From: Kappaphycus alvarezii
Lineage: Eukaryota; Rhodophyta; Florideophyceae; Gigartinales; Solieriaceae
Length of the DNA stretch: 64,000 nt
NCBI GenBank assembly: GCA_002205965.3
Contig: NADL03000883.1
Location: 32,210 to 96,209 of the forward strand
Direction of reading: 5' to 3'
The notes under the pieces are model-generated. The model searched no databases and had not been told where the DNA came from. It saw nothing but the letters and a program-made list of their open reading frames with translations. A program made the position numbers and the translations under genes. Below are positions 1,284 to 64,000 of this stretch, piece by piece; position 1 is the stretch's first letter; every line of letters starts with the position of its first letter.

Positions 1284-4200
1284 TTACCTAAATCTTTCAA
1301 CTCAAATCTCTTGTTCAGTTCACCTTCATCCAGGTCACGGCTTTCAGGTCACTTCCCGCAAGAAGCAAGTCATCCACATATAGGGAAATCAGCATAACAC
1401 CTTTTTCTGATATGTTTGTATATAGACAGGCGTCACTCCTCGTAATCTTGAAGCCAAGAGTGTGAATTAGGAAATCGTCAATCTTTTTGTGCCATTGTCG
1501 ACTCGCTTGCTTAAGAACATAGATAGCCTTGAGAAGTTTGCAAACATGATTGGGCCTGGAAGAGTCAACGATACCTTCAGGCTGCTCCATATAAATATCC
1601 TCTTCTAAGTCACCGTTCAGAAAGGCCGTGACCACGTCCATTTGATGAAGCTCTAAATCGAAGTGGGCTACAATCGCCAACAACAATCGAATCGTTGTAA
1701 ATTTGATCACCGGCGCAAAAGTCTCTGAGTAATCAATCCCTCAATTTGTTGAAAGCCCCGCACAACCAGGCGACCTTTTCCCTTTTGAGTCAACGTGCCG
1801 TTATCGTCCGGCATGTCCTTTACAGTAAATACCCAGCGAGAAGTTAGAATATTGGCACCTTCCGATCGTGGAACTAGTGCCCAGGTTTTGTTTTTGCGTT
1901 GGGACTCTAGCTCCTTATCAATCGCTTTCTGCCAGAACTGTGGTTGTGGTCCACCCATCGCCTCTTTAAAGGAGTTCGGTATGTTGATGTCGCCACAGGA
2001 AGGTGTGAGTAAGCTGGTTCCCACCAGCCTGTCCACCACTGTCGGGGTGGGCGTCGTGAACGAGTGGAGCGGCGAGGTTCCACATCGCCGGGACCAGCAT
2101 CTTGCTCACCACTCACTTCTTCTGGTTGCAAAGTCTCATTAGTTGAGTCGGGCTCAATACCTTGACTTTGAAAGTTCTCAACCTCCGCCGGTGACCCTGT
2201 TTCAATGCCATGTTCATTATCACCATTAGATGTTTCAGACTCAATTTCGTCAGTATCGGTCGTCTCCACTGGGTCAACGTCCATATCATTATCATCGGAG
2301 AAATGTTCATCGTAAGAGCAAGCCCCTGGTCTCGACTCATCGAACTGCACATCCCTGGAAATAACAATGCGATGTAAATTGTCATCCCAAATTTTGTAGG
2401 CCTTAGTCCCGGCGGATACCCAACAAACATTCCCGTTGTTGCGCGGTCGTCAAGTTTACGCACCTCATTACCAGGCACCTTGTACCAGCATTGACATCCA
2501 AACACACGTAGGTGAGATACATCGGGCTTTTTCTTCATCCATAGGTGAAATGGAGTAACGAGACCACCCAAAGCTCTTGTCGTGACACGATTGCGAACGT
2601 AAACTGCGTTATCAAGAGCTTCAGCCCAGAAAGCTTTCGGAACCTTCATATGGGACAGCATAGACCTGACGAGATCAATCAGGGTACGATTGAGCCGTTC
2701 TGCCACACCATTCTGTTCAGGTGTGTATGCAGCGGTCGTTTGATGAACAGTTCCTTGTGACGATAGAAAGGATTGGAACTCTGAAGAAAGATACTCTCCT
2801 CCACGATCAGATCGAAGCACTTTCACGCGTTGACCAGTGTGTGTGAAGGCATATTGGGCAAACTTCTGATAAAAATGGAACGTTTCATCTTTACTCTTCA
2901 TCGGATAGACAACACTCCAGTTTGAGTGGTCATCGATAAAAGTGACAAAGTATCTAGCACCACCTACTGACTGTACTTGGAGTGGGCCGCAGACGTCCGA
3001 ATGGACCAAGTCTAACAAATGTTTGGCCCTGCCTCCAGAGCGCTGTTTAGGAATCACAGCACGAGTTGCTTTTCCTAACACACACGCATCACATGTCACA
3101 GATTCACAGTCAGAAGATGAGCTAGCGTCTCTTGTTATATCTGAAGAGGAGATATGAAGTCCACTTACCACGTTCTTACGAGCCATGGACAATATTCCTT
3201 GAGTGTGAACGTGGGCCAATCTTTCATGCCATGTCTTCAAAGAGGCTTTGTGCGCCGAATGAACCTCGTTACATGTGTCAAGCACATACAGCTCTCCTCG
3301 ACTTGTGGCAGTAGCCACGATGCAGTCACTCCTCTTCACAGTGCACTTGTCACGAACGAACTCAACGTCAAATCCATTATCGACCATCTTACGTACAGAG
3401 ATTAGGGAAAAAGCAAAGCTTGGAACGTGCAGCACATTGGTGAGCTTGCATGACTTTTGAACTCCGCTCACTAAAAGCGTAATGGGGACGGTCCCGACTC
3501 CAGCTACTACTGCACACGCTTTTGTTCCCATTTCTACGCGGCTGTTTGAGACCTCCCTGTAGTCGGAGAACAGTCTCTTGTCAAATGTCATGTGTGCGGA
3601 GCATCCAGAGTCGATAAGCCAAGTGTTTGAGGTTATGTTGATACCAGAGTTATCTACCTTGTTCATCAGACATATGTACTCGACTTCATTAATTTCCAGA
3701 TCTTCTTGCTCTTGAGCAATCATCGCAGTAGGCTTCTGTGACTGTATACGTAGGAACCGGTCAGGTGGCGGTGGTCGCCTTCCGTTGATGTCCTTTCCCC
3801 AGCAGCGGGCAGCGGAGTGTCCATTGTGACCACAGTTGGTGCATGTCAAAGTCGAAACACGCCTTGCCTCAGGGATGTGCCCAATAAGAGCAGACCTTGG
3901 CGGATTCTGCCTTCTAGTAAGCCTCATCGATGCACGTTGCTCCTCTTGGAGCAGGCGACTTTTTACATATTCTACTCCGAACGTGTTATCTTCGGATCCA
4001 AGAGCGTCAAGCGCTACAATGAGATTTTGAAACCTCTGCGGAAGACCATTGAGAACTGCCATAGCCATTTCCTTGTCATCAATGATGACTCCCATTGACT
4101 TTAAGCGAGCTGCTAGGTGTCGCACACGTCCTATGTATGGCAAAACTTTCTCATTGTCTAGCATGGTGACCGTGTAGAAGTCTCTCCGGGCCGCCAGCTT

Positions 4201-4517
4201 ATTTAGTAATGTGTGGCGCTCAAAAACTTCCAAGATGGCGTCCCACATTTCTTTGGCTGTGACAGCATCTCTCACATGATCCAGGTGATCATCGGACAGC
4301 GACAGGCCGATGATGGCCCGGGCCTTTCGATCCCCTTGCTTCCATGCCTTGTAAGTGAAGATTGTTCATCTTCAGGAACGGTGCCATCAGTAATATACTG
4401 TTCCACATCGCGAAGGGCCAACAGGAGCTGAATCTTCTGTTTCCACACGTAGAAATTGGTATCCGTGAGCTTTTCGATCTTCATCGATCCTCCTCCTTGA
4501 TCTTCTCCGCTACTCAT
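1284..4517 (-). pseudogene. gag-pol: Copia gag-pol of family A, 3'-truncated, frameshifted
   Basis: The ATG at 4517 opens Gag (MSSGEDQGGG..., a UBN2-type copia Gag). The frame breaks near 4350 and continues in a 720-codon frame (4275-2113). In order this carries Gag, a CCHC knuckle (CTNCGHNGHSAARC), protease WLIDSGCSAHM (catalytic DSG), the integrase zinc region (WHERLAHV...CDACVLGK) and the DDE core (LVHSDVCGP, FVTFIDDHS, PEQNGVAERLNRTL). Further frames at 2350-1907, 2039-1707 and 1710-1315 hold the linker and RT, including TAFLNGD and LYVDDLLLAG. The coding sequence stops at KDLG, where the + strand LTR intrudes, so the RT end and RNase H are absent. At least four frame changes make this copy inactive if the sequence is correct. 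Confidence 0.93.
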
Positions 4518-4564
4518 TGCAATATTCTAGAGGTGCTAATGTTCTGTTCGAAGATCCCAAGCCG

Positions 4565-4579
4565 GGGACCGATAGTCCC
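4565..4579 (-). other. Conserved leader hairpin just upstream of gag (family A)
   Basis: On the minus strand this reads GGGACTATCGGTCCC: a 5-bp stem with loop TATCG. It lies about 50 nt before the gag ATG and is preceded by a weaker CTTG/CAAG stem. The same element occurs in family C (57052-57066), and with a compensatory base pair in family B (for example 8168-8182). Likely an RNA structure of the genomic transcript; the role is not known. Confidence 0.6.
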
Positions 4580-4677
4580 TTGTAGTGGCAAGCCCACCTC
4601 TATAAGAACACAGCACACGAAACTCTAGACTAAAGCAAAGGCCAAAGACGTCGCTTCAAACAAACAAATGGATCTCT

Positions 4678-5341
4678 TTAAATTCTCTGGGACAAAACTA
4701 CTTTCAAGTGTTCCTTCCCGTTCTCGTGACGCTTGAGAACCTCGTGGGAATCGAACACTCTATCACAAGCAGTACACCTAGGGGTCTTTTTCTTGTTTTC
4801 TCTCTAGTCCTATGACCCTTAGAATTGATGTGATCGTAGAATGTCTGTGCGCTATTGCAGCTAATATCACAGAGCTTGCAGTACCTCTTGTTCCTCGGCG
4901 GAACTCTTCGTTTTGCCTTTAGTTCCTTCTTGGCAACTCGATCGGCGAGGGCTTTAGCTTTCTTTGCCGAGAGGCGTTGAACTTTCTTTATTGGCTTATC
5001 CAGAGGTACTGACTTACGAGGGATCCTATACCTTTCCCTAGACGAGGGAAGCGCGAGCGTCTTCGGCGGCGGTCCTTCTGGTTCGAGTACTTCGATCGAT
5101 TCCACAACTGTCCTCCCCACAGATGGCAAAGTCCTAACTGTCGCAGCCCTGGGCACTCGGGGCACCAGGGCTAATTCCGAGTCTAGCACAACCCCGCAAA
5201 AGCAGGCACAAAAGTGGAAGTGATCGTCAGTAAAGCTTTTGGGATTATGAGTCTTTAGACCAACCAAAAGGTGCAAAGAGAATCACTTCGATGTGCAAAG
5301 AAATGGAATTATTCAAATAGCTTACCGGAACGAGTAGACAT
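4678..5341 (-). CDS. Accessory two-zinc-finger protein in the leader of family A
   Basis: An open frame of 190 codons (5276-4704) lies between primer site and gag. It has a Pro-rich segment, a Lys/Arg/Ala-rich helix (RLSAKKAKALADRVAKKEL) and a C-x2-C-x12-H-x5-H finger of the U1/JAZ type (starting KRYCKLC, ending SKGH). A second finger with identical spacing (starting CTACDRVF) follows 35 nt later in the -1 frame and runs to a stop at 4678. An alternative spliced start is visible: ATG at 5341, 16-nt exon, donor GTAAGC at 5325, acceptor GCTAG ending at 5183, joining in frame to DSELALVPR. Fingers of this class often bind double-stranded RNA; function here is unknown. Family C has the homologue at 56290-56952, differing mostly by synonymous changes, and E has a two-finger counterpart. 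Confidence 0.72.
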
Positions 5342-5423
5342 AATCAAGAGACTGAGATAGACAAGAAAACAATGCAGCAACACACGGCGACTTACGGGGT
5401 TCAGAGAAGGAGACGGCGTTGAA

Positions 5424-5437
5424 CTGGGCCCATAACC
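5424..5437 (-). other. Primer-binding site, half-tRNA iMet type
   Basis: The minus strand reads GGTTATGGGCCCAG immediately after the LTR end (CA at 5439-5438). It is complementary to the anticodon loop and stem of eukaryotic initiator tRNA-Met, as in elements that prime from a tRNA half-molecule. An identical site follows the LTRs of C (56192) and E (50970). Confidence 0.85.
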
Positions 5438-6494
5438 TGATGGGAATCGGGAGGCTGAAGGACTTTGCTGGACGGATGAAGTTGCGGGCTTGGCTACCCA
5501 GAATTTACTCGGAACTCTAAAATCCTGACCTTAAGTACAACCTACAACTATTTCTAACTCACTGCGTCCACTAACAGAATCCCAGAAACTATGCCATTTG
5601 AGCGGATTTCAAGATCTTGGTCCGGTGATAACAGTCATTAGGGGCATTTTGGAACTGCTTCCAAAGTTGACACATTTGTGTAAACAGGTTGGCCCAATAC
5701 ACACATCAATACTGTACCTTATTTTGCAACTTATCGGAACCGAATTCCCTTGTGCCAAAATAACGGACTCAATCCGTCATACGTAAAATGAATCACATAA
5801 CTGATTTTTGGATGCAGTCGGTCCAATCTTCATCATAATTAGGAACCTCATACATATGATGAAATCACATAACTGATTTTTGGATGCAGTTGTACAAATC
5901 AGTATCATAACTACAAACCACATACGTATGATGGAATCACATAACTGATTTTTGGATGCAGTTGAACAAAACAATATCATAACTAGAAACCTCATACGTA
6001 TGATGGAATCACATAACTGATTTTTGGATGCAGTTGTACAAACCAATATCATAACTAGAAACCACATACGTATGATGGAATCACATAACCGATTTTTGGA
6101 TGCAGCTGGATAAAACCCATAATCATAACTAGAAACTCATACGTATGATAGATACATAACTGATTTTTGGATGCAGACGGACAATCCTAATCATAACTAG
6201 AAAACATCATACGTAATGTAAAATCAAATACCTCTTCTAGGAGTCATGAAATATTGCCATAATCGATTTAATACTGTACAAACTCAATTACAGTAAGAGT
6301 ACAGTACTTGGCATTACGATGTGCAGTGCGAAGTACAGTTCCTCATTTGGCACTAGTACAGTACATGTACCCCAATGCACAAAAGGTTTCTACTCTTACT
6401 GTACCACGTGTACATCACATACACACCTGCCACCAACGTCCACGAGTACATAGCTTTCCTCAGCATATCTCTCATACAGTATACTCATCAGCCA
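5438..6494 (-). mobile_element. Family-A 5' LTR, outer end cut off by a family-B LTR
   Basis: On the minus strand the LTR ends ...CCCATCA at 5438, next to the primer site. It contains the 72-bp satellite (about 6200-5790) and a TGTACACGTG-rich part up to 6494. Compared with the complete copy at 53076-54233 it lacks the outermost ~240 bp. That missing piece is present, in the same orientation, at 13739-13974 and in each later array unit. Confidence 0.85.
5790..6200 (-). repeat. 72-bp satellite inside the family-A 5' LTR
   Basis: About six diverged units of the same repeat as at 1-957, on the opposite strand, each with ATACGTATGA at the unit junction. An apparent 96-codon frame (6067-5777) exists only because the unit length is a multiple of three. 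Confidence 0.9.
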
Positions 6495-7734: not shown

Positions 7735-8276
7735 GCTATACTTTGTTGAGGTGTAGATACGTGCTGTGCACGGAAGGACGAGGCTCATTGGTGACCTTGA
7801 GTGCTTTCACACGAGTACGACGGAAGTCAAGCAACACAGTCCGGAAGGAAACGCGCCTGAGTTAGTACGGAAAGACTGTGATTGTGGTAAGACGCCCTTT
7901 GCTGCGGGGACCTTTCGGGTAGTGGCTGAAAATTCCTGGCCGTCTACAGGTAAAGTCGCTGTGCTTACTCGTGGCACACGGATTGCGCTCAAAGTTGAAA
8001 GACCAGCACTGGCCGATATACAGGGGTAGCGCCCTAAGGCACAAATAAAGAGGTGGTAAAGAGGTAAAGAGGAGGAAAACTAAAGAGGTAAAGAGTTGGA
8101 AATTTAACACCACGTGTCTTTGAGTAAACGCTGCAAACTTCTTATAGGGAAAGGCTTGCCGTGACAAGCGACTATCGGTCGCCGGCTTGGGATACCCGAA
8201 CAGAGGACTTTGCATACTCACTGCATACGTGGTAATAGAGGTTTCAGATACAAAGGGTCTTGGATAAAACGTAGTC
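7735..8276 (+). other. Family-B leader, unit 1 (5'-deleted)
   Basis: Untranslated leader between LTR and gag. It holds an 87-codon ORF (7766-8029) of doubtful meaning, a purine-rich stretch with repeated TAAAGAGG (about 8045-8100), and the conserved hairpin GCGACTATCGGTCGC at 8168-8182. The primer-binding site is deleted. Confidence 0.75.
8168..8182 (+). other. Conserved leader hairpin, family-B version
   Basis: GCGACTATCGGTCGC: the loop TATCG is the same as in families A and C, and the second base pair of the stem is C-G instead of G-C. This is a compensatory change that keeps the stem. It recurs in every B unit, including the one at the right edge of the window. Confidence 0.6.
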
Positions 8277-13974: not shown

Positions 13975-14690
13975 CCGTTGCAGTGGCCCTTTTGCGCGCC
14001 GGCGGGACAGAACGCTCTCGCTTGAACGACCGATACGTACGCGAAACACCATCGCCCGCGGTCGGAGAGGGAACGACTGTCTTCTAATTCCTTACTCTGG
14101 TAGCATACCGGGTACTAGTGTTCTGCACTTGTACTTTGGTACCTGCTGGCTATACTTCTGTTGAGGTGTAGATACGTGCTGTGCACGGAAGGACGAGGCT
14201 CATTGGTGACCTTGAGTGCTTTCACACGAGTACGACGGAAGTCAAGCAACACAGTCCGGAAGGAAACGCGCCTGAGTTAGTACGGAAAGACTGTGATTGT
14301 GGTAAGACGCCCTTTGCTGCGGGGACCTTTCGGGTAGTGGCTGAAAATTCCTGGCCGTCTACAGGTAAAGTCGCTGTGCTTACTCGTGGCACACGGATTG
14401 CGCTCAAAGTTGAAAGACCAGCACTGGCCGATATACAGGGGTAGCGCCCTAAGGCACAAATAAAGAGGTGGTAAAGAGGTAAAGAGGAGGAAAACTAAAG
14501 AGGTAAAGAGTTGGAAATTAACACCACGTGTCTTTGAGTAAACGCTGCAAACTTCTTATAGGGAAAGGCTTGCCGTGACAAGCGACTATCGGTCGCCGGC
14601 TTGGGATACCCGAACAGAGGACTTTGCATACTCACTGCATACGTGGTAATAGAGGTTTCAGATACAAAGGGTCTTGGATAAAACGTAGTC
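13975..14690 (+). other. Family-B leader, unit 2 (3' part only)
   Basis: About 716 bp without a supported gene. Homologous to 63382-64000. Contains the 87-codon leader ORF (14181-14444), the TAAAGAGG purine tract and the conserved hairpin about 105 bp before gag. The first ~830 bp of the full leader, including the primer site, are replaced by the family-A fragment. Confidence 0.75.
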
Positions 14691-20412: not shown

Positions 20413-21129
20413 CCGTTGCAGTGGCCCTTTTGCGCGCCGGCGGGACAGAAACGCTTCTCGCTTGAACGACGGATACGTACGCGAAACATTATCGCCCGCG
20501 GTCGGAGAGGGAACCACTGTCTTCTAATTCTTACTCTGGTAGCATTCCGGGTACTAGTGTTCTGCACTTGTACTTTGGTACCTGCTGGCTATACTTTGTT
20601 GAGGTGTAGATACGTGCTGTGCACGGAAGGACGAGGCTCATTGGTGACCTTGAGTGCTTTCACACGAGTACGACGGAAGTCAAGCAACACAGTCCGGAAG
20701 GAAACGCGCCTGAGTTAGTACGGAAAGACTGTGATTGTGGTAAGACGCCCTTTGCTGCGGGGACCTTTCGGGTAGTGGCTGAAAATTCCTGGCCGTCTAC
20801 AGGTAAAGTCGCTGTGCTTACTCGTGGCACACGGATTGCGCTCAAAGTTGAAAGACCAGCACTGGCCGATATACAGGGGTAGCGCCCTAAGGCACAAATA
20901 AAGAGGTGGTAAAGAGGTAAAGAGGAGGAAAACTAAAGAGGTAAAGAGTTGGAAATTTAACACCACGTGTCTTTGAGTAAACGCTGCAAACTTCTTATAG
21001 GGAAAGGCTTGCCGTGACAAGCGACTATCGGTCGCCGGCTTGGGATACCCGAACAGAGGACTTTGCATACTCACTGCATACGTGGTAATAGAGGTTTCAG
21101 ATACAAAGGGTCTTGGATAAAACGTAGTC
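20413..21129 (+). other. Family-B leader, unit 3
   Basis: About 717 bp of leader with the 87-codon ORF (20619-20882), the TAAAGAGG tract and the conserved hairpin. No primer-binding site and no supported gene. Confidence 0.75.
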
Positions 21130-26846: not shown

Positions 26847-27564
26847 CCGTTGCAGTGGCCCTTTTGCGCGCCGGCGGGACAGAAACGCTTCTCGCTTGAA
26901 CGACGATACGTACGCGAAACACCATCGCCCGTGGTCGGAGAGGGAACGACTGTCTTCTAATTCCTTACTCTGGTAGCATACCGGGTACTAGTGTTCTGCA
27001 CTTGTACTTTGGTACCTGCTGGCTATACTTTGTTGAGGTGTAGATACGTGCTGTGCACGGAAGGACGAGGCTCATTGGTGACCTTGAGTGCTTTCACACG
27101 AGTACGACGGAAGTCAAGCAACACAGTCCGGAAGGAAACGCGCCTGAGTTAGTACGGAAAGACTGTGATTGTGGTAAGACGCCCTTTGCTGCGGGGACCT
27201 TTCGGGGTAGTGGCTGAAAATTCCTGGCCGTCTACAGGTAAAGTCGCTGTGCTTACTCGTGGCACACGGATTGCGCTCAAAGTTGAAAGACCAGCACTGG
27301 CCGATATACAGGGGTAGCGCCCTAAGGCACAAATAAAGAGGTGGTAAAGAGGTAAAGAGGAGGAAAACTAAAGAGGTAAAGAGTTGGAAATTAAACACCA
27401 CGTGTCTTTGAGTAAACGCTGCAAACTTCTTATAGGGAAAGGCTTGCCGTGACAAGCGACTATCGGTCGCCGGCTTGGGATACCCGAACAGAGGACTTTG
27501 CATACTCACTGCATACGTGGTAATAGAGGTTTCAGATACAAAGGGTCTTGGATAAAACGTAGTC
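26847..27564 (+). other. Family-B leader, unit 4
   Basis: About 718 bp. The 87-codon ORF of units 1-3 is broken here by an extra G (TTCGGGGTAG, about 27201), the same form as in the B copy at 63740. This speaks against a conserved protein. TAAAGAGG tract and conserved hairpin are present. Confidence 0.75.
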
Positions 27565-33238: not shown

Positions 33239-33955
33239 CCGTTGCAGTGGCCCTTTTGCGCGCCGGCGGGACAGAAACGCTTCTCGCTTGAACGACGATA
33301 CGTACGCGAAACATTATCGCCCGCGGTCGGAGAGGGAACCACTGTCTTCTAATTCTTACTCTGGTAGCATTCCGGGTACTAGTGTTCTGCACTTGTACTT
33401 TGGTACCTGCTGGCTATACTTTGTTGAGGTGTAGATACGTGCTGTGCACGGAAGGAAGAGGCTCATTGGTGACCTTGAGTGCTTTCACACGAGTACGACG
33501 GAAGTCAAGCAACACAGTCCGGAAGGAAACGCGCCTGAGTTAGTACGGAAAGACTGTGATTGTGGTAAGACGCCCTTTGCTGCGGGGACCTTTCGCGGTA
33601 GTGGCTGAAAATTCCTGGCCGTCTACAGGTAAAGTCGCTGTGCTTACTCGTGGCACACGGATTGCGCTCAAAGTTGAAAGACCAGCACTGGCCGATATAC
33701 AGGGGTAGCGCCCTAAGGCACAAATAAAGAGGTGGTAAAGAGGTAAAGAGGAGGAAAACTAAAGAGGTAAAGAGTTGGAAATTTAACACCACGTGTCTTT
33801 GAGTAAACGCTGCAAACTTCTTATAGGGAAAGGCTTGCCGTGACAAGCGACTATCGGTCGCCGGCTTGGGATACCCGAACAGAGGACTTTGCATACTCAC
33901 TGCATACGTGGTAATAGAGGTTTCAGATACAAAGGGTCTTGGATAAAACGTAGTC
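33239..33955 (+). other. Family-B leader, unit 5
   Basis: About 717 bp. The variant TTCGCGGTAG near 33593 is shared with unit 6 only. Contains the purine tract and the conserved hairpin; no primer site. Confidence 0.75.
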
Positions 33956-48200: not shown

Positions 48201-49547
48201 CCACTAGAGATCCATCGGTGTTGTCTGTAAGCAGAACAGCGTTGCGATTGAATTGGGAGTTAATGCCGCGATTTGCCATTTCGGATACCGAGAGCAGCTG
48301 GTATCGAAGAGTAGGAACGTGAAGTACGTTCTTTAGTAGGCATTGAACGGTATCCTTTTTATAACGGAGAGTCAGCACTACGTCACCTGTTCTCTCGATA
48401 GAGGCTGTAGAATCTGCTCCCAGATCCAGAGTTGAGTTAGCCGAGGACTCTTGGTATGAAACAAAGGCCGAGCGATCGTGCGTGACATGGGGTGTACAGC
48501 CCGAATCGATAACCCATTCATAGCAAGGGATACAGAGCTACCAATAGTTTGTAGCGCCACATTGCTTGGTTCAAGGGATTCGCTTCAGTGACAATTATTT
48601 CCATCAACCGAGTGATCGGTGGTGACATTGCTTACAAAGATCTCGTTTCACACTCCGGAGTTGCAGCGTCGCAATCAGCGACGCGATGGTTAGGCATGGA
48701 TACCAAGCAGACGAGGTCTCTGTCTTCTTCTTTCTCAAGGGAAGCTTGGGAAGCTACAAGACCTTTTCCCCCATCTCGGCCCTTGTTCAAGTGGGCTCGA
48801 GCTGGGTGGCCAAGTAGCAAGGTGTGGGTACTTTTTGAAGCAGCGACTGCTGTCACGATGCTTTCCACAGTGTATGCATATCTCAGCGGTAGGGTCTCGC
48901 TTGAACTTGGGCCGTTGCTTTCCAAGAAGAGCCGCGGATTCCGAAGCCCTCAAGGCGTCCTGATCTCGTTGGGCATGGCGCTGCTCCTCTTGGTGGCATC
49001 TGCTTTGAACGAACTCGAAGGAGAATTTGTCGTCATCGAGATGAGCAGCGTCAAGGGCCGAGATGAGAGTATCAAAGCGATCTGGCAGGCCGTTAAGTAG
49101 CGCCATGGCCATTTCGCTGTCTTCGATGTGGACGGACATCGACTTGAGAGTGGCAGCGAGCTGGCGGATACGGGCGGCGAACGAGAGCACTTTCTCGTTC
49201 GGGTTCATCTTGGCGGTATAGAATCGGCGCCTGGCAGCCAGTTTATTGAGAAGAGTATGCTTCTCAAAGATATCACAAATCAGGGACCACATGACCTTGG
49301 CGGTATTGGCATGCTGGACTTGTTCGAGATGGGTATCAGATAGAGTCAGTCCGATGGTAGCCCTAGCCTTGCAATCCGCCTTCTTCCATGCGGAGTATGT
49401 AGGTGACGAGGTTTCCGGAGGGTCTTCAGTAAGGTGGTCGTCAACTTCCCTCAGTGAGAGCAATAGTTGAATTCTCGACTTCCAGATGTGGAAGTTGTCA
49501 TCACGGAGCTTCTCGAGACTGTCGAGTCGAAGTCCTGAAGAGTCCAT
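45300..49547 (-). pseudogene. gag-pol: Copia gag-pol of family E, several frameshifts
   Basis: Gag ATG at 49547 (MDSSGLRLDSLEKLRDDNFH), open to 48735, with a degenerate knuckle (CIHCGKHRDSSRC, not the normal CX2CX4HX4C spacing). Protease VIDSGC near 48507 (canonical DSG). Integrase 48378-47389 has TWHERLAHI, SCVGCILGK, LVHSDVLGP and TPQQNGTAERMNRTL, with a short extra segment (EFHDTRIPFEND) before the second catalytic block. Then linker 47385-47074; RT 46916-46359 (TAFLNGELEEEIF) and 46341-45580 (LYVDDLLIAG); RNase H to 45300 with SDSDWAGC, SSCEAEYIS and ILTKPLLR. Breaks near 47390, 46970, 46430 and 45690. The 3' part is nearly identical to the second E copy at 59143-61195, where 347 codons are continuous. 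Confidence 0.93.
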
Positions 49548-49619: not shown

Positions 49620-50484
49620 TTACTTATTTCTACGATTAATGTGCCTGTTGCGATCGTGTCTCGTCTGGAAGAGGCGATTGCAGCAAACACACGGAGTGAT
49701 GGCTGATCTCCTCTCGACTCTGTTTCGACACTTCTTTCCACCTCTGTGCTGCTCGAGCTGCTTTGGACCCGAGACTTTGAGTTGGCAAAGGTCACAAACC
49801 AGGAGGGAAGACTTGGGCTTGGAGATAGGAGGAACAGGAGTTGGAGGTAGGGGAACGAATGGAGCCGGAGAGAGAGGTTCGACTGAAAGAGGAGTCGGAA
49901 CCCTTGGAGATGAAGGAACAAATGCAACAGAAGGGGCAGCAGGAGAGAGTGGAGATTGGATGGGAGCAGCTGGAGCTGGAGACGTCGAAGCCGGAGAAGG
50001 GGAGATGAGAGAAACCACTTGAATGGGTCGGGGTGTCGGAGGTTTCGGATCCTTCTTCTTCTTCGGCTCTCCTCCCTTTGATTCCTGCTTGGCTTCGATA
50101 CTCTGCTCGATGAGGCAGGAAGCGGCTTGGAGCGAAGGTTCGTTGGCTTTGACTTCTTTCGTAGAGGTTTCGGAGCTAGAGATTTCGGACGAGCAGGCAG
50201 TTTCGGACGGTTGGCAAGGGAAAGGATATGGTTTAAGAAGGAGTCCTTCTTCTCCGGAGGAGGAGGCTTGGAGACGACTTCGACTTGAACAACCTCTGGA
50301 GTAGTCGCGGTGGAAGGAATGTCGTTACCTTCGCCGTCCGACTCAATAGCGGAATCGTCGATGAAACGCACTTCGGACGGGCAGGAGGCTTGGCGGAGGA
50401 TTCGTCGAAGGTAAGGCGGCGAATCACGGGATCGTTCGGAGGGATGTCGATGCCGCGACGAAATACGGAGAGTGAGATGACCAC
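49620..50484 (-). pseudogene. Accessory Pro-rich two-zinc-finger protein in the leader of family E
   Basis: Three overlapping minus-strand frames (50484-50233, 50371-49583, 50018-49620) make up one likely product: an acidic start (FIDDSAIESDGEGNDIPS), a Pro/Lys/Arg-rich middle, a long Pro/Ser/Ala stretch, and two fingers in one frame. Finger 1 is C-x2-C-x12-H-x5-C (starts CDLCQLKV); after 12 residues finger 2 starts CVCCNRLF with the same spacing, but its last ligand is Lys followed by stop. Two frame changes (near 50375 and 50020) mean it is broken as sequenced. Position and finger spacing match the leader proteins of A and C although the sequence is otherwise unlike. Function unknown. Confidence 0.6.
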
Positions 50485-50570: not shown

Positions 50571-50956
50571 TGTTGCGACTAGGCACGGGCCGTGAGACAA
50601 ACCGGGGTATGTAACACGGGGGCGAGACAAGAAGCAACGAGAGCAAGACGGGCCGCAAGATGTACTGGAATCTGTGGTGTGGGGATGAAGAGCGGCGACG
50701 GGCTGCAAAACCAACAGGAGTAGGTAGAGCAGGGACGACGGACACTAAGCAGGCCACAAGACAGGAGGTCAGTAGATAATGCAGAGACGTCAAGAGAGTG
50801 CGGTCAAACCTTACGGGCTTTTTTTTTTTTTTTTCTTCCCTACACGGAGTGTAGGGTAGCCTCCGCGAAGTTGTTCAGTCTGTCCCTACACGGAGTGTAG
50901 GGTAGCGTCCGGGGTGCGCGAGCAAGCGAGATGGATTCGTGAGCAGCGCTAGTGTC
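50571..50956 (-). other. Family-E leader with two identical hairpins and a T/A tract
   Basis: No gene. Holds a run of Ts (about 50820-50834, + strand) and two copies of the perfect inverted repeat CCCTACACGGAGTGTAGGG (50838-50856 and 50884-50902), each an 8-bp stem with a 3-nt loop, 46 bp apart and close to the primer site. Confidence 0.7.
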
Positions 50957-50970
50957 CTGGGCCCATAACC
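50957..50970 (-). other. Primer-binding site of family E, half-tRNA iMet type
   Basis: Minus strand GGTTATGGGCCCAG directly after LTR end CA (50972-50971). Identical to the sites of families A and C although the rest of the leader is unrelated. Confidence 0.88.
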
Positions 50971-53075: not shown

Positions 53076-54233
53076 TGGGAATCGGAGAGGGTGAAGGACT
53101 TTGCTGGACGGATGAAGTTGCGGGCTTGGCTACCCAGAATTTACTCGGAACTCTAAAATCCTGGCCTTAAGTACAACCTACAACTACTTTCTAACTCACT
53201 GCGTCCACTAACAGAATCCCAGAAACTATTGCCATTTGAGCGGATTTCAAGATCTTGGCCCGGTGATAACAGTCATTAGGGGCAATTTTGGAACTGCTTC
53301 CAAAGTTGACAAATTTGTGTAAATAGGTTGGCCCAATACACACATCAATACAGTACCTTATTTTGCAGACTTATCGGAACCAAATTCACTTGTGCCAAAA
53401 TAACGGACTCAATCCGTCATACGTAAAATAGAATCACATAACTGATTTTTGGATGCAGTCGGTCCAATCTTCATCATAATTACGAACCTCATACATATGA
53501 TGGAATCACATAACTGATTTTTGGATGCAGTTGTACAAATCAATATCATAACTAGAAACCTCATACATATGATGAAATCACATAACTGATTTTTGGATGC
53601 AGTTGTACAAATCAGTATCATAACTAGAAACCACATACATATGATGGAATCGCATAACCGATTTTTGGATGCAGCTGGATAAAACCCGTAATCATAACTA
53701 GAATCCTCATACATAATATAAAATCAAATACCTCTTTCTAGGAGTCCCGACAGTACTGCCATAATCGATTCATACTGTACAAAGTCAAGTACAGTAAGGA
53801 GTACAGTACTTGGTATATTACGATGTACAGTGCGAAGTACAGTTCCTCATTTGTCACTAGTACAGTACGTGTACAACACTGCACAAAAGGTTTCTACTCT
53901 TAGCTGTACCACGTGTACATCACATACACAACTGCCACCACGTACACGTGTACATAGCTTCCCTCAGCATATCTCTCATACAGTATACTCATCATCCACT
54001 TATAGTACCCTACCCTACGTAAAATCACCCCATAAACAACATTTTGCCCTCAAAGTCGCTGACCGCTCAAAATCGTACTTTCGTCCCTGGGAACTTTGGA
54101 TTTCTTCCGAAATGCCTTAGGGCCACCCTTCATTCAACATGTGGGCATGTGTACACGTGGAACATGCCTCATGCCTCTTATGAGGTTTGGCACCGATGTG
54201 GGGTCACGTGATCGTCTTGCCAAATCAACAACA
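53076..54233 (-). mobile_element. Complete family-A-type LTR, 3' LTR of element F
   Basis: Minus strand TGTTGTTGATTTGG (54233) ... CCCA (53076), 1158 bp, with the 72-bp satellite at about 53715-53430. This intact copy shows that the 236-bp array fragments and the cut LTR at 5438-6494 are two parts of one LTR type. Preceded on the minus strand by the polypurine tract GAGGGGGGG. Confidence 0.9.
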
Positions 54234-54781: not shown

Positions 54782-56191
54782 TGACTAGACGTCTCGCACG
54801 GAGGTTGGGAAAGCTGTATATCTGTACACGTGGACACGTGTGGTTCTGAAGGATAATATATGCCAAATTTACCCGAAAAACAAAGTTGCCGGGGACGAAA
54901 AGCCATTTTCGAGGGTCGACGACAAATGCAAATTTTGCATAATTGTAGACAAGTGGAACTTGGCCCATAATGCCTAGGCTAAGAATTGCCTGCTTTAATC
55001 CTATTGGCTGATAGGTCAAATGCTGCAATTCTATTGGCTGGTGATGTACACGTGTAATGGCTGTAGAGGTGTAAGGGTTGACTTTGAGCTATTTTAGAGG
55101 GAAGAATGGTGTTTATGGGGTCATTTTACATAGGGTAGGGCACTGTAAGTGGGTGAGAAGTATACTGTATAAGAGGTATGTCGAGGTAAGGTATGTACAC
55201 TTGTACGTGGTGGCAGTTGTGTATGTGATGTACACGTGGTACAGCAAAGAGTAGAAACCTTTGGTGCAGTGGTGTACACATACTGTACTGGTGTCAAGTT
55301 TCGTACTGTACCTCGTACTGTGCTTCTTACTGTACCTCGTACTGTACTTCTTACTGCACTTGAGTTCGTACAGTGGGAGTTGGTTATGAAAATACTATCA
55401 TGGCTACAACGCTCCGGTCTCTCCAGGTACAGTAGAATGCCTGCTGTATCCGCCGGCTGCATCCAAAATCAGTTTTGTGATTCTATAACACGTATGAGGT
55501 TTCTGATTATGATTACGATTTGCCGGCTGCATCCAAAATCAGTTATGTGATTCTATAATACGTATGAGGTTTCTAATTATGATTACGGGTTATCCGGCTG
55601 CATCCAAAATCAGTTGTGTTATTCCATAATACGTATGAGGTTTTTGATTATGATTAAGGTGTGCCCGCTGCATCCAAAATCAGCTATGTGATTCCCTAAC
55701 ACGTATGAGGTTTCTGATTATGATTACGGTTTGCCCACTGCATCCAAAATCAGCTATGTGATTCTCTAACACGTATGAGGTTTCTGATTATGATTACGGT
55801 TTGCCGGCTGCATCCAACATCAGTTGTGTGATTCCATAATACGTATGACGGGTTGAGTCCGTTATTTTGGCACAAGAGAATTCGATTCGGATGAGCTTAC
55901 AAAATAAGGTGCTGTATTGATAGGTGTATTGGGCCAAACTGTCTTACACGAATTTGACAACTTTGGAAGCAGTTCTAAAAATGCCCCAATTGAACGTTAT
56001 TACTGGGCCAATATGTTTCAATCTGTCCAAATGGTTCAGTTTCTATGTTTTTGTTAATGGACGCAGTGAGTTAGAGAGTAGTTGCAGGTTGTACTTAAGG
56101 TCAGAATTTTAGAGTACCGAGTAAATTCTGGGTAGCCAAGCCCGCAGCTTCATCCTCTTCCCCACAGCCTTCCCCATCGCAACTCATCTCA
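54782..56191 (+). mobile_element. Family-C 5' LTR
   Basis: Runs from about TGACTAGACGTC (54782; start inferred from the break in F) to CATCTCA (56191), followed by the primer site. The inner part is homologous to family-A LTRs, including the 70-72 bp satellite. The outer part shares with family-B LTRs the ACGAAAAGCCATTTTCG hairpin and CACGTG motifs. Confidence 0.82.
55447..55858 (+). repeat. ~70-bp satellite inside the family-C LTR
   Basis: Six units (GGCTGCATCCAAAATCAG...TACGTATGAGG), more diverged from the family-A units than these are from one another. Confidence 0.9.
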
Positions 56192-56205
56192 GGTTATGGG
56201 CCCAG
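56192..56205 (+). other. Primer-binding site of family C, half-tRNA iMet type
   Basis: GGTTATGGGCCCAG directly after the LTR CA. Confidence 0.88.
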
Positions 56206-56289: not shown

Positions 56290-56952
56290 ATGTCCACGTT
56301 CCTGGTAAGTTATTTGAATAATTCCATTTCTTGGCACATCGAAGTGATTCTCTTTGCACCTTTTGGTTGGTCTAAAGACTTGTAATTCCATAAAGATGTT
56401 ACTGACGATCACTTCCACTATCTGTGCCTGCTTCTGCGGGGTTGTGCTAGACTCGGAATTAGCCCTGGTGCCGCGAGTGCCCAGGGCTCCATCGGTCAGA
56501 GGTTTACCGTCAGGGAGGAGGTCAAGTGTGGAGAGGATCGAGGTTATTGAACCGACAACACCACCGCCGCCGACGCTCGCCCTTCCTGCCGCCCAGGAAG
56601 GATATAGGATCCCCCGCAGGTCAGTACCTCCACAGAAGCCGATTAGAAAAATTCAACGACTCTCGGCCAAGAAAGCCAAAGCGCTTGCCGATCGAGTCGC
56701 GAAGAGGGAGCTGAAGGCGAAGAAGCGAGTTCCGCCGAGGCACAAGAGGTACTGCAAGACCTGCCAGATTAGCTGCAATAGTGCTAAGACATTCTACGAT
56801 CACGTACATTCTAAGGGTCATAATACTAGAGTAGCCAACAAAAAGGAGACCCCTGGTGTACTGTTTGTGATAGAGTGTTCGACTCCCACGAAGTTCTGAA
56901 ACGCCACGAGAACGGGAAAGATCACTTGAAAGTAGTTTTGTCTCAGCAGTAA
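56290..56952 (+). CDS. Accessory two-zinc-finger protein in the leader of family C
   Basis: Homologue of 4678-5341. The main frame (56354-56899) has the Pro-rich part, RLSAKKAKALADRVAKREL, and finger 1 (starting KRYCKTC, C-x2-C-x12-H-x5-H). Finger 2 (starting CTVCDRVF, same spacing) follows 35 nt later in the -1 frame and ends at TAA 56950-56952. Over the helix and finger 1, 58 codons show 15 synonymous and 8 amino-acid changes against family A; over finger 2 it is 7 and 2. That pattern indicates past selection on the protein in both frames. A short upstream exon (ATG 56290, donor GTAAGT at 56305) and acceptor GCTAG (56450) match those of family A, but the exon is one base shorter and would not join in frame. 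Confidence 0.72.
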
Positions 56953-57051
56953 AAGGGATCCATACTTTGGTTAAAAGCGAGTGCTCGGCCTTTGCATTTA
57001 GCTTTGAGTTTCGTGTGCTGTGTTCTTATAGAGGTGGGCTTGCCATTGCAA

Positions 57052-57066
57052 GGGACTATCGGTCCC
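57052..57066 (+). other. Conserved leader hairpin, family C
   Basis: GGGACTATCGGTCCC, 48 nt before gag, preceded by CTTGC-CATT-GCAAG. Identical in stem 2 to family A. Confidence 0.6.
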
Positions 57067-57114
57067 CGGTTTGGGATCTTCGAACAGAACACAAGCACCT
57101 CTAATCTATTTGAA

Positions 57115-58657
57115 ATGAGTAGCGGAGAAGCTCAAGGAGGAGGGTCAATGAAGATAGAGAAGCTGACGGATACGAATTTTTATGTGTGGAAGCAGAAAAT
57201 ACAGCTACTTTTGGCACTGTGAGATGTAGAACAGTACATAACAGATGATACTGTCCCTGCTGATGAAAATTCTTCAACGTACAGGACATGGAAGCAGGGA
57301 GATCGAAAAGCCAGAGCAATCATAGGGCTGTCTCTTTCTGATGACCATTTGGACCATGTAAGAGATGCTGTTACTGCAAGGGTATGTGGGTTGCTATTCT
57401 AGAGGTGTTTGAGCGACATACGCTGCTGAACAAGTTGGCTGCTCGTAGAGAGTTTTACACTGTCAGTATGCTAGAAAATGAGAAGGTGCTTCCGTATATC
57501 GGACGTGTGAGACACCTGGCGGCTCGTTTGAAGTCCATGGGGGTCGTTATCGATGACAAAGAGATGGCTATGGCAGTGCTTAACGGCCTCCAACCGCGTT
57601 TTCACAGCCTCATTGTTGCTCTGAACGCTCTTGGATCTGAAGACAACTCCTTTGGAGTGGAGTATGTCAAAAGTCGTCTACTTCAAGAGGAACAACGAGC
57701 TTCAATGAAGTCGTCCAGGCGACAGATGACTTCAAGTGCCGCCCTTATTGGCAATGTTTTTGAAGGAAGGCGCCAGTCTTCTTTGACGTGCACTAATTGT
57801 GGTCACACCGGACACACAGCCTCCCGTTGCTGCGGAAAGGATGTTAATGGAAAGCGACCTTCTCCACCCGAACGATTTCAGCGGAGGCAATTACAGAAGC
57901 CAACGGCAATGATCGCTCAAGAAAAGGATGGCTCGGAAGCGAATGAGGTGGAGTATATTTGTCTGGTGAACAAAGCGGATAAGTCTAACGTTAAAATAAC
58001 CTCTAACACATGGCTTATAGATTCCGGGTGCTCCGCCCACATGACGTTTGACAAAAGCCTCTTTACAGACTACCGTGAGGTCTCGAACAGCCGCGTTGAG
58101 ATGGGAACCAAGGCTTGTGCGATTGTGGCTGGAGTCGGGAGCATTCATTTGATGCTATCAGTGAACGGCACTTAAAAATCTTGTAAGCTCAGCAATGTGC
58201 TACACGTTCCCAGTTTTGCCTTTTCTCTAATTTCAGTACGCCAGATGGTCGACAATGGACTTGATGTTCAGTTTGTTCGTGACAAGTGTACTGTAAAGAA
58301 AAATGACTGTACTGTGGCAACCGCGACAAGTAAAGGAGAGCTCTACGTGCTTGATACGTGTGATATGACTCATTCGGCTCACAAAGCCTCCTTGAAGACG
58401 TGGCACGAAAGACTTGCTCACGTTCATACTCAAGGAATCTTGTCTATGTCTCGCAAGAACGTAGTAAGTGGACTTCATCTTTCTTCTTCAAATGATACCA
58501 AAGATACTGGCTCATCTTCTGACTTTGATTCCGTGAAATGCGATGCTTGTGTGGTAGGAAAAGCAACTCGTGCTGTAATTCCCAAACATCGCTCAGGAGG
58601 TAGGGCAAAGCAGCTGCTAGACTTAGTCCATTCGGACGTCTGTGGCCCACTCCAAAC
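57115..58657 (+). pseudogene. gag-pol: Copia gag and partial pol of family C, interrupted by element E2
   Basis: ATG 57115 (MSSGEAQGGGSMKIEKLTD). A TGA at 57220-57222 replaces Arg, the frame shifts near 57382, then 57384-58175 is open through Gag, knuckle (CTNCGHTGHTASRC) and protease (WLIDSGCSAHM, DSG), ending at a TAA at 58173. It continues at 58197 with the integrase zinc region (TWHERLAHV...CDACVVGK) to LVHSDVCGP at 58650. The E2 LTR begins at 58658. RT, RNase H and 3' LTR should lie beyond the window. Confidence 0.92.
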
Positions 58658-62561: not shown

Positions 62562-64000
62562 TCACGCTACCGCTCTTTCCGCTTGATCCGTCCCTCAACC
62601 GTTGACGTTGACGTTGAGGTAATTGCTTCTCTGTGTTGTTGTGCTGTTGTGTTGTGATTTGTTGCTTTGTGGTGAGTTGTTGTTCTTGTTTTGTGTTAGG
62701 ATCCAGTTTTTGTGATTGTCAAGCACTTCTGTGTGTGGATCCTGAGTGTTTTTGTGGTTTACCATTGTGTGTTGAATGGCAATCTTTTGTGACTACGAAC
62801 AACGTTAAGGTTGTCAAGCACTCTGTGTGTGGATCCTGAGTGTTTTGTGGTTACCATTGTGTGTTGAATCAGAGCAATCGTTGTTTGTGCTCTACTACTG
62901 TTGAGAACAATTTTTGTTTCAAGCACTCTGTGTGAGGATCCTGAGTGCTTTGTGGTGTCATTGCTCTGCTTGTCGTTTGTTGGTTTGGTTTTCTGTCTCT
63001 TTTGTGGTGTTGTGGTCATTCGGCAATTGATCAGCTCGAGTTTATTGTTTGGAAATATTGGCCTTGTTGTTTGAGGAGGAATCTAGGCCTGGTTGTTGAT
63101 ACCCCTTGCACTCTTGGAAAGCCTTCACGGCAACGGAAAAGAAGAAGACAGAGTGCCGGGGTCCGCCCAAGTTTGTCCGATTCTTTTGCCGAATCGTGGT
63201 CTTGGCAATCGGTTTTGTGATCCTCTCACCGGCTGTACTCTTTTGAGAACAGTGCCTTTGTGTAACGCGAGTTGGACGGACCGTACCATACAAACCCACG
63301 CGGTTGATAACGCGAGTTATCAAAGTCGTAAGACTGAACCCGATTCCCGGTGGGAATCACGGTGTACCAGCCGAGTCGGTCCGTTGCAGTGGCCCTTTTG
63401 CGCGCCGGCGGGACAGAGACGCTCCTCGCTTGAACGACCGATACGTACGCGAAACACCATCGCCCGTGGTCGGAGAGGGAACGACTGTCTTCTAATTCCT
63501 TACTCTGGTAGCATACCGGGTACTAGTGTTCTGCACTTGTACTTTGGTACCTGCTGGCTATACTTCTGTTGAGGTGTAGATACGTGCTGTGCACGGAAGG
63601 ACGAGGCTCATTGGTGACCTTGAGTGCTTTCACACGAGTACGACGGAAGTCAAGCAACACAGTCCGGAAGGAAACGCGCCTGAGTTAGTACGGAAAGACT
63701 GTGATTGTGGTAAGACGCCCTTTGCTGCGGGGACCTTTCGGGGTAGTGGCTGAAAATTCCTGGCCGTCTACAGGTAAAGTCGCTGTGCTTACTCGTGGCA
63801 CACGGATTGCGCTCAAAGTTGAAAGACCAGCACTGGCCGATATACAGGGGTAGCGCCCTAAGGCACAAATAAAGAGGTGGTAAAGAGGTAAAGAGGAGGA
63901 AAACTAAAGAGGTAAAGAGTTGGAAATTAACACCACGTGTCTTTGAGTAAACGCTGCAAACTTCTTATAGGGAAAGGCTTGCCGTGACAAGCGACTATCG
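62562..64000 (+). other. Full-length family-B leader
   Basis: About 1.45 kb to the window edge with no supported gene; gag should begin ~125 bp further. Contains three ~30-nt repeated hairpins (62721-62752, 62816-62844, 62921-62950), then from CCGTTGCAGTGG (63382) the sequence found in the array units, with the 87-codon ORF broken by an extra G (~63741), the TAAAGAGG tract and the start of the conserved hairpin at the very end. Confidence 0.8.
62721..62950 (+). repeat. Three spaced copies of a hairpin-forming repeat in the B leader
   Basis: Each has AAGCACTC near its start and GAGTGTTT or GAGTGCTT near its end around GGATCC. The third copy forms a perfect 8-bp stem, the second has one G-U pair and the first one extra base. 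Spacing is about 95-105 bp. Confidence 0.7.

Follow-up and report, generated by a model that had tools for sequence, protein, structure and literature searches.

What use would a copia element, usually held to need Gag-Pol alone, have for an additional gene ahead of gag? The question is raised by a 64,000-nt stretch of contig NADL03000883.1 from Kappaphycus alvarezii (assembly of 336 Mb in 884 contigs), which was analysed as a whole and is referred to here as the window. Two of its element families, A and C, carry a gene for a small basic two-finger protein between the primer-binding site and gag. In A this gene lies on the minus strand, from the ATG at 5341 to the stop at 4678, exactly the span that the first-pass annotation had marked out, and in C it lies on the plus strand (56290-56952). 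The same annotation had proposed such a gene for three copia families; it stands in A and C, whereas the third family, E, is only a probable case. We regard the gene as almost certainly real and linked to the element, and its product as a well-supported accessory factor, element-encoded, selected and of RNA-binding type.

The window consists mostly of copia-type elements with LTR-type repeats and a putative primer motif, GGTTATGGGCCCAG, which we take to match, by complementarity, the 5' half of the initiator tRNA-Met; no tRNA genes were found in the 64-kb window. In element A, the putative primer binding site (5424-5437, minus strand) abuts the 5' LTR, which extends to about 5438, and its motif is shared by C (56192-56205, plus strand) and E (50957-50970, minus strand). 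A domain scan gave the order Retrotran_gag_2, Pol_BBD, gag_pre-integrs, rve and SH3_retrovirus for the gag-pol region of A (2113-4517, minus strand; gag ATG at 4517, longest ORF 2113-4248), Gag and Pol_BBD for C, whose gag region spans 57115-58175 on the plus strand (ATG at 57115, longest ORF 57384-58175), and Gag for E. Judging from these Gag-to-integrase-side domains, the three elements would belong to Ty1/copia. A further family, B, forms a head-to-tail array at about 6496-40200, where closely similar units recur about every 6.4 kb, with a common repeat of about 1.2 kb and two leader types. Tandem repeats of about 72 bases lie at 1-950, 5704-6206, 53345-53775 and 55450-55850, apparently within A/C-type LTRs.

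The gene turned out not to be the single ORF from the ATG for which it had been taken. In window A, the unspliced reading from the ATG hits a stop after 10 codons, and the finger frame opens past TGTGCTAG at 5183. A tiny ATG exon and a finger exon are parted by a predicted GT-AG intron: a GTAAGY donor follows after 16 nt in A and 15 nt in C, and the finger frame starts past a TAG acceptor about 145 nt further on. In A (minus strand), comparison of the leaders defines exon 1 (5326-5341; 16 nt from the ATG, phase 1, MSTRS-), intron 2 (5183-5325; GTAAGC ... TACTGAC ... CTAG), and exon 2 (4678-5182), which holds the Pro-rich start, the basic helix region, the two fingers and the stop. In C (plus strand), the corresponding parts are exon 1 (56290-56304; 15 nt in the window copy, against 16 nt at L061, a related locus), intron 2 (56305-56450), and exon 2 with two fingers (56451-56952). 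The A intron, with its branch-like TACTGAC inside, is 143 nt long in the window copy; at the remaining 29 of the 30 A loci it measures 144 nt.

The case for splicing is clearest when one open copy of A is set against one open copy of C, that of L061. In both, exon 1 is 16 nt long and ends in phase 1 (MSTRS against MSHVS), and the unspliced reading stops after 10 codons. The introns are 144 nt (A) and 146 nt (L061) when the final TAG is included, or 141 and 143 nt without it, and since they are 2 nt apart, the ATG comes into frame with the fingers in both copies only after the intron is removed. The GTAAG donor and the TAG acceptor are found in 38 of 38 distinct leaders; L063 is an exception in having its second donor changed to GTAAAC. 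Upstream, a stretch of A at 5352-5395 (minus strand; GTAAGT ... CTCAG) would be either a first 5' UTR intron or a plain upstream donor; as an intron it is doubtful, being only 44 nt long, and we take 5395 as a donor of uncertain partner, present also in window C and in all 30 A loci. A genomic copy of the spliced form was searched for and none was found. On these sequence grounds, the finger protein is very probably read from a spliced RNA, with a predicted product of about 173 residues comprising a disordered Pro-rich start, a strongly basic helix and two JAZ/matrin-type fingers.

What kind of fingers are these? In A, finger 1 (4812-4880) and finger 2 (4708-4776), both on the minus strand and both of the form C-x2-C-x12-H-x5-H, score 28.4 and 32.5 bits against zf-C2H2_jaz, for which the Pfam cut-off is 22.6 bits, and both also pass the cut-off for zf-met. 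The finger spacing first described, C-x2-C-x12-H-x5-H/C, is thus confirmed for A. The scan of C covered finger 1, which falls under both cut-offs. In the structure model of the relative P0005, the fingers and the basic helix are confident, and the helix is broken in each finger. Foldseek returned weak analogues, with a Xenopus dsRNA-binding finger protein in the top row, JAZ ZF3 among the matches, and RNA-binding and spliceosomal fingers near the top.

Two rival functions arise from these comparisons. In the first, the product would be a silencing suppressor: by binding small or double-stranded RNA, its fingers would protect the element from RNA-based silencing, while the intron merely times expression. 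The Foldseek matches and the Pfam description of zf-C2H2_jaz as a double-stranded RNA-binding finger speak for it; taken alone, however, it does not account for the much lower divergence of a noncoding intron compared with the synonymous sites of the leader (see below), and we consider it unlikely. In the second, the product would bind DNA, as an activator of transcription from the LTR or as a cofactor of integration targeting. DNA binding is common among C2H2 fingers, and many DNA-binding fingers appear in both the sequence and the structure searches, the top sequence rows included. However, DNA-binding C2H2 fingers are typically TGEKP-linked, unlike the present pair, which has H-x5-H in both fingers, a 12-residue linker and no third finger, and the broken helices of the P0005 model point the same way, so that this function appears quite improbable.

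Is the protein maintained by selection? A first search gave four relatives, and the two-finger profile search against protein databases proposed at first pass yielded 60 proteins at E<=0.1 (four already in the query alignment), a number that excludes a chance origin. Among the 44 relatives that were aligned, 37 retain all eight ligands. The two-finger spacing is matched exactly by 37 of the 60, with 12 residues between the fingers in 35 of these 37, and the stretch of about 51 residues before finger 1 has a mean charge of +15.6 (41 proteins). The excess of synonymous changes noticed earlier between A and C was borne out: the 156 codons compared in the window copies show 50 synonymous and 43 replacement differences (dN/dS 0.196), and the comparison of one open copy of each gave 0.199 (95% 0.12-0.33; 165 codons). 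The proposed dN/dS test therefore came out firmly between families, where a value of 0.20 is far from 1 (Fisher p 1.8e-12), and less so within A-type copies, where pN/pS is 0.40 but not clearly below neutral (p 0.063; 16 codon variants, seven synonymous and nine nonsynonymous). It seems that A-type copies decay once inserted, as would be expected. Finger 2 alone gives a dN/dS of 0.054 between A and C (30 codons), and the gag-integrase region gives 0.057 (508 codons), which places the finger gene as a whole under a weaker but clear constraint.

Decay is also visible in the window itself, since in both A and C the frame of exon 2 is broken between the fingers, leaving finger 1 and finger 2 in different frames. 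These breaks are a defect of those copies, because P0001, a 96% identical protein, reads through both fingers, and so do 23 of 30 A leaders (167 residues) in a first sample of loci. In this sample, the primer site, the first donor, the ATG exon with its donor and the pre-gag site are present at all 30 loci, and at 10 of them gag stays open as far as the retrieved sequence extends. Another 30 loci, chosen by protein similarity and comprising 23 A-type and seven C-type leaders, have both fingers in one open frame and a downstream acceptor-like site in every case, and the primer motif in 29; from the acceptor onwards, an unbroken frame is seen in only eight of the 23 A-type leaders and in none of the C-type ones. 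A further search gave 66 equal-score rows with open frames of at least 201 residues among the 150 candidates scored out of 1814. One of these rows, L061, comes from the same genome and is C-type, as the other 65 presumably are. On contigs C98, C514, C884 and C654 of this genome, rows that score the same as the C-type locus lie about 6.5 kb apart, which suggests that the C-type family also occurs in tandem arrays.

The broken frames of the two window copies and of many others, as well as a variation within A that is not clearly below neutral, are what a passenger would leave behind, that is, a fragment of a host gene caught once and decaying without any role. Against this stand the low dN/dS between families, the retention of all ligands in most aligned relatives, and the 23 of 30 near-identical A copies that are still open, and we find such a passenger hardly credible. 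In searches aimed at the family itself, no source gene in the host came up.

Element E has a diverged finger ORF (49623-50324, minus strand) directly upstream of its gag (48735-49547). Its finger 1 is of the C2HC type and exceeds the cut-off for zf-met only (22.7 bits); its finger 2 departs from the spacing first described, ending in H-x5-K with the fourth ligand absent, and the frame switches. The ORF had no relative in the protein database at E<=1, although a tblastn of family proteins, run without filters or composition correction, placed 48 alignments on the E finger region, the best at 2.9e-9. Whereas A and C are certain carriers of the gene, E is a probable third. In the leader of E, a perfect hairpin, CCCTACACTCCGTGTAGGG, also occurs twice after the primer motif (50838-50902, minus strand), and this pair might act as a signal for dimerisation or packaging.

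The intron is highly conserved. Between A and C, intron 2 is identical at 132 of 143 positions (92.3%) in the window copies and at 135 of 141 (95.7%) in the open copies, whereas elsewhere it amounts to 67% for exon 1, 76% for the part of exon 2 that precedes the fingers, 74-79% for the upstream leader and 61.5% past the stop. In the window copies, 11 of 143 intron positions differ, against 52 of 156 third codon positions (Fisher p 3e-8), and dS in the finger gene is 0.67-0.72, the higher value being that between open copies. The intron also folds better than its shuffles (z -3.21 in A, -2.80 in C). In the predicted fold, a GAAGUGAUUC/GAUCACUUC stem surrounds the branch-like site and a GCACA/UGUGC pairing lies by the acceptor, so that the branch-point-like and 3' splice sites are both enclosed; the bases of the stem are invariant, which leaves it without proof from covariation.

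Instead of function, such conservation may reflect a recent exchange between A and C by template switching, an explanation that accepts the gene as real and fits with any of the other readings. L063 looks recombinant, with an A-type 5' part of the leader joined to a C-type exon 2, the finger gene has a dS of about 0.7 where the gag-integrase region has 1.68, and one part of the LTR end equals intron 2 in its conservation between the families. The contrast in dS and the structure of L063 suggest either an exchange of leaders between families or a constraint on them at the RNA level. However, A and C do differ inside the intron, and given that identity falls on both sides of it, a single recent exchange of the whole leader is insufficient to account for the conserved block. 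In our view, exchange in place of function is less likely than not.

A further conserved element lies immediately ahead of gag. In A (4555-4608, minus strand), it consists of an acceptor-like TTCTTATAG at 4600, 83 nt before gag, and a hairpin, GGGACUAUCGGUCCC. The element reads TTCTTATAG and then GGCUUGCC...CAAGSGACUAUCGGUCSCCGGCUUGGGA, with UAUCG as the loop. It recurs with one mismatch in C (57023-57076, plus strand), in five copies of B (8139-8192, 14553-14606, 20992-21045, 27427-27480 and 33818-33871) and in a sixth that is cut by the end of the window (63962-63999), on the plus strand. At one pair of the stem, A and C have G-C where B has C-G. The fold of the whole pre-gag stretch of 92-139 nt is not unusual in A (z -0.44) or B (z 0.93) and moderately unusual in C (z -2.22). 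Its position and its conservation in the three families would fit a role in translation, where the finger product or its frame sets up the translation of gag through the pre-gag hairpin. B, however, was described at first pass as a family without the leader gene, and an unfiltered tblastn with the family proteins gave no good plus-strand match in B leaders. The pre-gag element is therefore independent of a recognisable finger gene, and this separability makes the translation role very improbable.

How might a two-exon accessory gene in the leader of Ty1/copia elements serve its carrier? The retained intron, the basic product of RNA-binding type and the conserved fold together suggest a self-regulation of splicing, export or packaging. 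Full-length RNA would retain the folded, conserved intron between the tiny ATG exon and the finger exon, and this unspliced RNA would be the template copied into DNA, while spliced RNA would give rise to the finger protein. The protein may then go back to the nucleus and bind the structured leader RNA of its own element, restraining its splicing and/or aiding the export or packaging of the intron-containing genomic RNA. The first-pass annotation had already seen in the gene a retrotransposon-encoded RNA-binding factor. Its being element-borne (30 of 30 A loci) and selected, with fingers of RNA-binding type, has stood up; that the product acts on the element's own RNA has, in our estimate, about an even chance, and the target and the role would follow from the same line of thought. 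As a whole, the best reading we can offer is an accessory gene, expressed by splicing, with a product that targets the unspliced RNA of its own element, and we put it just short of even.

A more specific form of this reading can be proposed tentatively: the copia lineage may have independently evolved a circuit like that of Rev and the RRE, where the finger protein recognises an intron element of its own gene and the unspliced RNA is exported and packaged. In that case, protein and RNA target would lie within a single leader of about 920 nt, with a protein family that has many diverged public relatives, and a control of genomic RNA like that of complex retroviruses would have arisen in Pseudoviridae too. 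A selected, spliced regulatory gene with a folded intron would then be a compact natural protein-RNA pair, directly testable.

To our knowledge, no copia family with such a layout has been described. None came up in the literature searched, as far as its accessible text goes, most subscription journals and preprints lying outside it. According to the accessible part of a plant survey, LTR elements do carry extra ORFs outside gag-pol, including a 5' forward class, which differ from the finger gene in being highly heterogeneous, and half-tRNA-Met primer sites, such as the one proposed here, occur in the Osser, Bryco and part of the Gymco-II copia groups; this survey set a lower limit of 250 codons, which puts a gene as small as the finger gene outside its count (PMC6317226). 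As far as the available text goes, a screen of angiosperm elements found each of its 15 unusual domains in elements of gypsy type and none in those of copia type (PMC9289625), and an ORF1 upstream of the polyprotein is mentioned for diatom elements in the context of the GAG region (PMC2806351). In the accessible text on Drosophila copia, a copia element has an alternatively spliced transcript, as would be the case here; its spliced isoform, however, codes for Gag plus mainly protease, with no extra gene (PMC11835246).

At the level of the protein, the dsRNA-binding fingers of JAZ/ZNF346 and Xenopus ZFa and the matrin-type fingers of the spliceosome are of the same type (zf-C2H2_jaz, zf-met). 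At the level of the system, the likeness is to HIV-1 Rev and to CERV of Cer1, an LTR retrotransposon of Caenorhabditis elegans, and it would be one of logic. The Rev gene is placed differently in its genome than the leader finger gene. In the accessible text of the Cer1 report, Rev is a viral protein through which a structured part of the unspliced RNA is linked to export, and CERV, made from a spliced mRNA, is required for the export of the unspliced genomic RNA (PMC10309623). Like the finger gene, CERV is element-encoded and expressed from a spliced mRNA (by our reading of the sequence in the present case); it has candidate nuclear localisation and export signals and a cysteine-rich region that may be a zinc finger (PMC10309623). 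Cer1, however, is a Gypsy/Ty3-type element, and CERV, in the same text, lacks any recognised motif for RNA binding and shows at most a possible C4 finger (PMC10309623), whereas the gene described here belongs to copia elements, lies upstream of gag and encodes two JAZ-type C2H2 fingers, with a role in export that would be assigned to it by analogy.
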